Origin: Candidatus Nitrosocosmicus agrestis
GTDB taxonomy: Archaea; Thermoproteota; Nitrososphaeria; Nitrososphaerales; Nitrososphaeraceae
Length of the DNA stretch: 64,000 nucleotides
Assembly (NCBI RefSeq): GCF_008389435.1
Contig: NZ_VUYS01000003.1
Coordinates: 1 to 64,000 of the forward strand
Direction: 5' to 3'
Below, piece after piece: positions 36,246-60,797 of this stretch (positions within the stretch are counted from its first letter, which is position 1; every line of letters starts with the position of its first letter). The translations under genes and the position numbers were made by a program. The notes below the pieces were generated by a model, which saw only the letters and a list, made by a program, of their open reading frames with translations, did not search any database and was not told where the DNA came from.

Positions 36246-36343
36246 CGCCCGGGCCGGGATTCGAACCCGGGTCAAGGGAGTGACAGTCCCCCATACTGGA
36301 CCGGATTATACAATGCCTTCTTGCATTTCTATACTACCCGGGC
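36246..36343 (-). tRNA. tRNA-Asp (anticodon GTC) with an intron in the D loop
   Basis: On the minus strand the ends GCCCGGG / CCCGGGC form the 7-bp acceptor stem, with G as discriminator base. The anticodon arm GGGGA-CTGTCAC-TCCCT gives anticodon GTC, and the T arm CCGGG-TTCGAAT-CCCGG is perfect. The D arm is interrupted: GTATAG is followed by ~26 extra bases before GGTCCAGTAT. Removing them gives the common tRNA-Asp D arm. The extra segment contains a 4-bp stem (ATGC...GCAT), so it is most simply an intron spliced at a bulge-helix-bulge. The exact splice sites are uncertain by a base or two. Confidence 0.93.
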
Positions 36344-60590: not shown

Positions 60591-60711
60591 AAGAGCGATA
60601 ACCACTTCCTGTTAATGTTGATGTACAAGTCAGAAAAGTTAATATCAGCATCAATCAAAAGGAAATGATGTTGCGGTCATCGTCTAGTTTGGTTAGGACA
60701 CTGGCCTTCCA

Positions 60712-60733
60712 TATATATTATTTATGTGGAGAA
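60712..60733 (+). other. Intron 1 of tRNA-Gly, anticodon loop (37/38)
   Basis: About 22 bases after the anticodon TCC and position 37, at the canonical archaeal intron site. The flanks TCCA...TGGA can pair to give a bulge-helix-bulge, and the splice points could move by one or two bases. The exon continues AAGCCCG. Confidence 0.8.
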
Positions 60734-60748
60734 AGCCCGTAACCCGGG

Positions 60749-60777
60749 ACTTTGTCGGAATTCAGACAAAGCGGGAA
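60749..60777 (+). other. Intron 2 of tRNA-Gly, in the T arm
   Basis: About 29 bases between the T-stem CCGGG and the T-loop TTCAAAT. It contains a perfect 7-bp stem CTTTGTC/GACAAAG with loop GGAATTCA. Its removal restores CCGGG-TTCAAAT-CCCGG exactly. Introns at this place in the T arm are non-canonical, known in some archaea. Confidence 0.82.
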
Positions 60778-60797
60778 TTCAAATCCCGGTGACCGCA

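Follow-up and report, generated by a model that had tools for sequence, protein, structure and literature searches.

The stretch at positions 60673-60797 on the forward strand of the window (the whole 64,000-nucleotide stretch of DNA analysed here) is almost certainly a functional Nitrosocosmicus tRNA-Gly(UCC) gene carrying two protein-spliced introns. Its host is a soil ammonia-oxidising archaeon of the genus Candidatus Nitrosocosmicus (Nitrososphaeraceae), with a 3.22-Mb genome in 43 contigs that is 98.9% complete. The gene is made of five pieces, three exons and two introns (Table 1), which read in order GCGGTCATCGTCTAGTTTGGTTAGGACACTGGCCTTCCA, TATATATTATTTATGTGGAGAA, AGCCCGTAACCCGGG, ACTTTGTCGGAATTCAGACAAAGCGGGAA and TTCAAATCCCGGTGACCGCA. 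Removal of the two inserts, of 22 bases in the anticodon loop and 29 bases in the T arm, leaves a 74-nt product, as the initial annotation had proposed: a full cloverleaf with the anticodon TCC and the conserved T loop TTCAAAT. The acceptor, D and T stems are then perfect, also as claimed; the one mismatch, U28-C42, lies in the anticodon stem, about which nothing had been said. This mismatch is kept across the Nitrososphaeraceae and in many intron-less relatives, and is replaced by a pair in a few (L170 and L171). The gene ends with the discriminator A and does not encode the CCA.

Table 1. Features of the tRNA-Gly(TCC) gene and its upstream region (window coordinates)
Feature	Position	Strand	Remarks
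Candidate TATA-like promoter box, AAGTTAATATC	60636..60646	+	About 27-37 bases 5' of the tRNA start
Exon 1, positions 1-37: acceptor 5', D arm, anticodon TCC	60673..60711	+	Almost unchanged throughout genus and family
Intron 1, 22 nt, position 37/38; BHB, exon CTTC with intron GGAG	60712..60733	+	Cleanly missing from L158 and from orthologues without introns
Exon 2, positions 38-53: 3' anticodon stem, variable region, 5' T stem	60734..60748	+	Scanner and sequence
Intron 2, 29 nt, position 53/54, T arm (between T stem and T loop); BHB	60749..60777	+	Cleanly missing from seven Nitrososphaeraceae genomes
Exon 3, positions 54-73: T loop, 3' T stem, acceptor 3', discriminator A	60778..60797	+	Read from the sequence

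The scanner used here removes introns bounded by a bulge-helix-bulge (BHB) and then scores the resulting cloverleaves. Its best solution consists of exactly these two introns, with a score of 70.9, compared with 47.6 for the runner-up among 2,128 tiles covering both strands of the window, and with a maximum of 47 in 400 dinucleotide shuffles of the region. General tools perform less well. The Rfam tRNA model matches 60673-60797 from end to end, but the inserts bring its score down to 26.6 bits, below the cut-off of 29 bits, and ARAGORN, run with or without anticodon-loop introns, finds no tRNA there. Annotators should be warned that, as a result of this blindness and of the sub-threshold score, the genome would falsely appear to be devoid of Gly(UCC).

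Splice sites and the proposed path to the mature tRNA

In the standard archaeal BHB, the cuts fall between the second and third bases of each bulge. As judged from their pairing, both introns of tRNA-Gly(TCC) match this layout. Intron 1 is inserted one base 3' of the anticodon; nucleotides 32-35 of the exon form the four pairs of its central helix, flanked by the 3-nt bulges CA|T and AA|A, and a 5-bp inner helix (ATATA/TATGT) follows. For the noncanonical intron 2, four pairs join exon nucleotides 48-51 (CCCG) to CGGG in the intron, the bulges are GG|A and AA|T, and the inner helix is the clean 7-bp hairpin noticed in the initial annotation (CTTTGTC/GACAAAG); no clear outer helix was found past the central helix of this intron. 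The modelling of both sites, suggested at the outset, thus yields a four-pair BHB at each, consistent with the archaeal mechanism. The register of intron 2 is unique on the sequence; that of intron 1 could be shifted by one base on the sequence alone, and the BHB picks 37/38. Removal of the 53/54 insert gives a conventional tRNA, and seven homologues lack an intron at the same site.

From features that can be read directly (the sequence, the BHB pairing, its conservation and covariation, the natural versions lacking an intron at each site, and the genes for both enzymes), we infer the transcription, cutting and ligation of tRNA-Gly(UCC), as well as the order of these steps. Each intron would fold with its flanking exon into a BHB, in which the exon pairs with the 3' part of the intron over 4 bp, between two 3-nt bulges. 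The two-subunit archaeal tRNA-splicing endonuclease would cut inside the bulges, RtcB would ligate the exons into the 74-nt tRNA, and the CCA would be added after ligation. Since the T-arm BHB occupies nucleotides 48-51, the mature T stem presumably forms only once intron 2 has been removed. It is possible, if on balance doubtful, that the T-arm intron goes back to an ancestor of the Nitrososphaeraceae and is shared by almost the whole family, that it has to be removed before the T stem can form, and that splicing and T-loop modification may be held to a fixed order in these archaea.

The genome encodes the enzymes expected for such a path. Two paralogues of the tRNA-splicing endonuclease are present (L073 and L074, PF01974/PF02778): the first, of 199 aa, closely resembles endonuclease chains of crenarchaea and aligns with the catalytic Tyr, His and Lys; in the second, of 240 aa, the His position is replaced. 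An RtcB ligase is encoded as well (L173), so that by gene content the host possesses a heteromeric-type endonuclease and a ligase. The two paralogues probably assemble into a heterotetramer. Thaumarchaeota are reported to have an alpha2beta2 endonuclease, an enzyme type that has been connected with noncanonical introns (PMC4090602); the presence of two paralogues together with RtcB would fit it.

Conservation, natural intron losses and rival readings

The gene is found in all 15 genomes of the genus, 14 of which carry the intact two-intron form. The single genus copy with broken exons (L057 1501-1612, G012:C222) shows several single-base losses and changes; it looks like the product of assembly or read errors, in a genome that is 84% complete, or like a real decaying copy. 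Fifty of the 58 copies parsed in the family have both introns, seven only that at 37/38 and one only that at 53/54. Both introns occur together in 11 of the 12 Nitrososphaeraceae genera; the twelfth is represented by a single genome, 75% complete, that gave no match. The exons are near-invariant over these 11 genera as they are over the 14 genus members. The introns diverge among relatives in sequence and in length, from 16 to 42 bases for intron 1 and from 19 to 33 for intron 2. At both sites, every one of the 45 distinct introns tested has all four central BHB pairs. By a statistic that ignores sequence relatedness, the inner helices covary: arms of the same gene pair better than arms swapped between genes (4.29 versus 2.77 and 4.73 versus 4.02, of 5 pairs), a level reached in none of 5000 permutations. 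No evidence of covariation comes from the central helix of intron 2, which is invariant because it has to match an invariant exon.

Relatives that lack one or both introns fix the two junctions. Intron 2 alone is missing from seven copies (L097-L100, L152, L157 and L159), in which the sequence is continuous through the proposed junction. All seven belong to genus g6 (genomes G026, G027, G032, G035, G036, G038 and G041); they read CCCGGG|TTCAAATCCCGG without interruption and have otherwise near-identical exons. Three other genomes of the same genus (G025, G040 and G042) retain the T-arm intron. Intron 1 alone is missing from one copy (L158, genome G029), which keeps the T-arm intron. Both are missing from L125-L144, L146-L150 and L169, with a straight read-through at the proposed junctions; this uninterrupted gene is found in family f11 (probably Nitrosopumilaceae) and in members of f10, f12 and f18. 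The simplest history would be that both introns were gained en route to the Nitrososphaeraceae and that losses occurred later in g6. In other families of the order and class, among them f2-f9, Gly(TCC) was sought with a sequence pattern that proved too strict: most of its matches (e.g. L175-L178) are not tRNA-like, and only L174 and L186 are true tRNAs.

A box resembling TTTAATATC stands at a similar upstream distance in most family copies, L099 and L100 being the exceptions. In these two copies, which both lack the T-arm intron, a TATATA-type box replaces TTTAATATC and the upstream region is different, setting them apart from the other family members.

Could the locus be a pseudogene or a remnant with random insertions, Gly(UCC) being supplied by another gene? 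Two insertion sites, a sub-threshold Rfam score and the degraded-looking copy in one relative might suggest so. However, a second intact Gly(TCC) gene, which the initial annotation had named as the sign of a pseudogene, was not found in the 98.9% complete genome, either among 44 matches to the tRNA model or by DNA similarity. The inventory combined the Rfam search with individual loci, about ten of which (several Leu/Ser/His-like or fragments) were left unresolved by the simple scanner, so the absence of another such gene is strongly though not absolutely supported. The other two Gly tRNAs of the genome read GCC (L009) and CCC (L014), and in seven ORFs of the window glycine is most often encoded by GGA (65 of 159 codons). 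Together with exons that hardly vary across the genus and 11 genera of the family, and with a BHB kept by every insert, this makes a pseudogene extremely improbable, and we reject it.

It is also very improbable that only the anticodon intron is spliced and that the 29-nt T-arm insert stays in the mature tRNA as an extra arm. The insert does make a stable hairpin, and in the predicted minimum-energy fold of the precursor its CGGG pairs with CCCG at 61-64, mimicking a T stem, instead of forming the BHB. This fold has -53.3 kcal/mol versus -34.0 for the double-BHB form; the same program misfolds the spliced tRNA (-32.3 versus -25.3 for the cloverleaf) and its precursor fold thus says little against the BHB. 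Free-energy folding, which does not favour the BHB, was kept out of the evidence. A retained insert would part the T stem from the T loop. Moreover, it is precisely absent from seven Nitrososphaeraceae genomes and from the intron-less relatives, and the BHB geometry holds in 45 of 45 distinct T-arm inserts of 19-33 nt. These points argue for splicing of both introns.

Relation to known introns and other tRNA loci of the genome

The initial annotation considered a double intron with one in the T arm unusual outside Thermoproteales. This was overstated. Position 53/54 stands in the published list of noncanonical archaeal tRNA intron positions, and Pyrobaculum islandicum tRNA-Pro(UGG) has as many as three introns (PMC4090602). 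The introns described there resemble the present ones in the 53/54 position, in the BHB with 3-nt bulges and a 4-bp central helix, and in the 37/38 intron alongside; they differ in that our host is an ammonia-oxidising member of the Nitrososphaeraceae rather than of the Thermoproteales, and in that here the intron of one tRNA is conserved family-wide. For Thaumarchaeota, 107 noncanonical tRNA introns have been counted with a dedicated tRNAscan-SE 2.0 model trained on such introns (PMC8450103); they share phylum and intron type with tRNA-Gly(TCC), which would be expected in that class. Caldiarchaeum subterraneum is likewise an archaeon with multi-intron tRNAs, two-intron ones among them, and with T-arm introns, but in other tRNAs, its two-intron tRNA-Thr(GGU) being interrupted at 24/25 and 45/46 (PMC3293823). 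In the Nitrososphaeraceae, moreover, the two-intron form is the usual one. With 53/54 already listed, Thaumarchaeota a known source and T-arm introns present in Caldiarchaeum, the case belongs to a known intron type, and two-intron tRNA-Gly(TCC) is a well-supported case of archaeal tRNA splicing as already known, with nothing out of the ordinary. Our literature search, whose scope did not extend to the per-gene tables of PMC8450103, found no paper naming this tRNA-Gly(TCC) gene or its T-arm intron. Outside Thermoproteales, the gene provides a clear instance of a two-intron tRNA that has been conserved, and the natural deletion of each intron pins the splice sites.

More noncanonical introns occur in the host genome, for example in tRNA-Asp and both tRNA-Glu, so the arrangement of tRNA-Gly(TCC) is normal for the lineage. 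In the window, tRNA-Asp(GTC) (36246-36343, reverse strand) has a 23-nt noncanonical D-loop intron at about 36306-36328, near position 15/16; ARAGORN miscalls this gene as Arg(ccg) and Rfam matches it only partially. The genes for tRNA-Glu(TTC) (L037, about 101-180) and tRNA-Glu(CTC) (L038, about 101-159) carry D-loop introns that end in CACAG and lie at about the same site as that of tRNA-Asp, which suggests that these related tRNAs share one site of insertion. A noncanonical intron is also present near the 5' side of tRNA-Gln(TTG) (L036).

The contig that carries tRNA-Glu(TTC) (L037, G000:C8:4982-5061) has a second copy of the 3' half of this gene 3.8 kb downstream (L041, G000:C8:8817-8870), the arrangement that would be expected if the two were attachment-site copies on either side of a small integrated mobile element. 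Finally, a tRNA-like gene whose acceptor end is poor (CCTCAGG...CCTGATA) and whose apparent anticodon is TGC (L022 1501-1574, G000:C24:34196-34269) stands beside a regular intron-containing tRNA-Ala(TGC) (L020), and is possibly a pseudogene or an element-borne tRNA.
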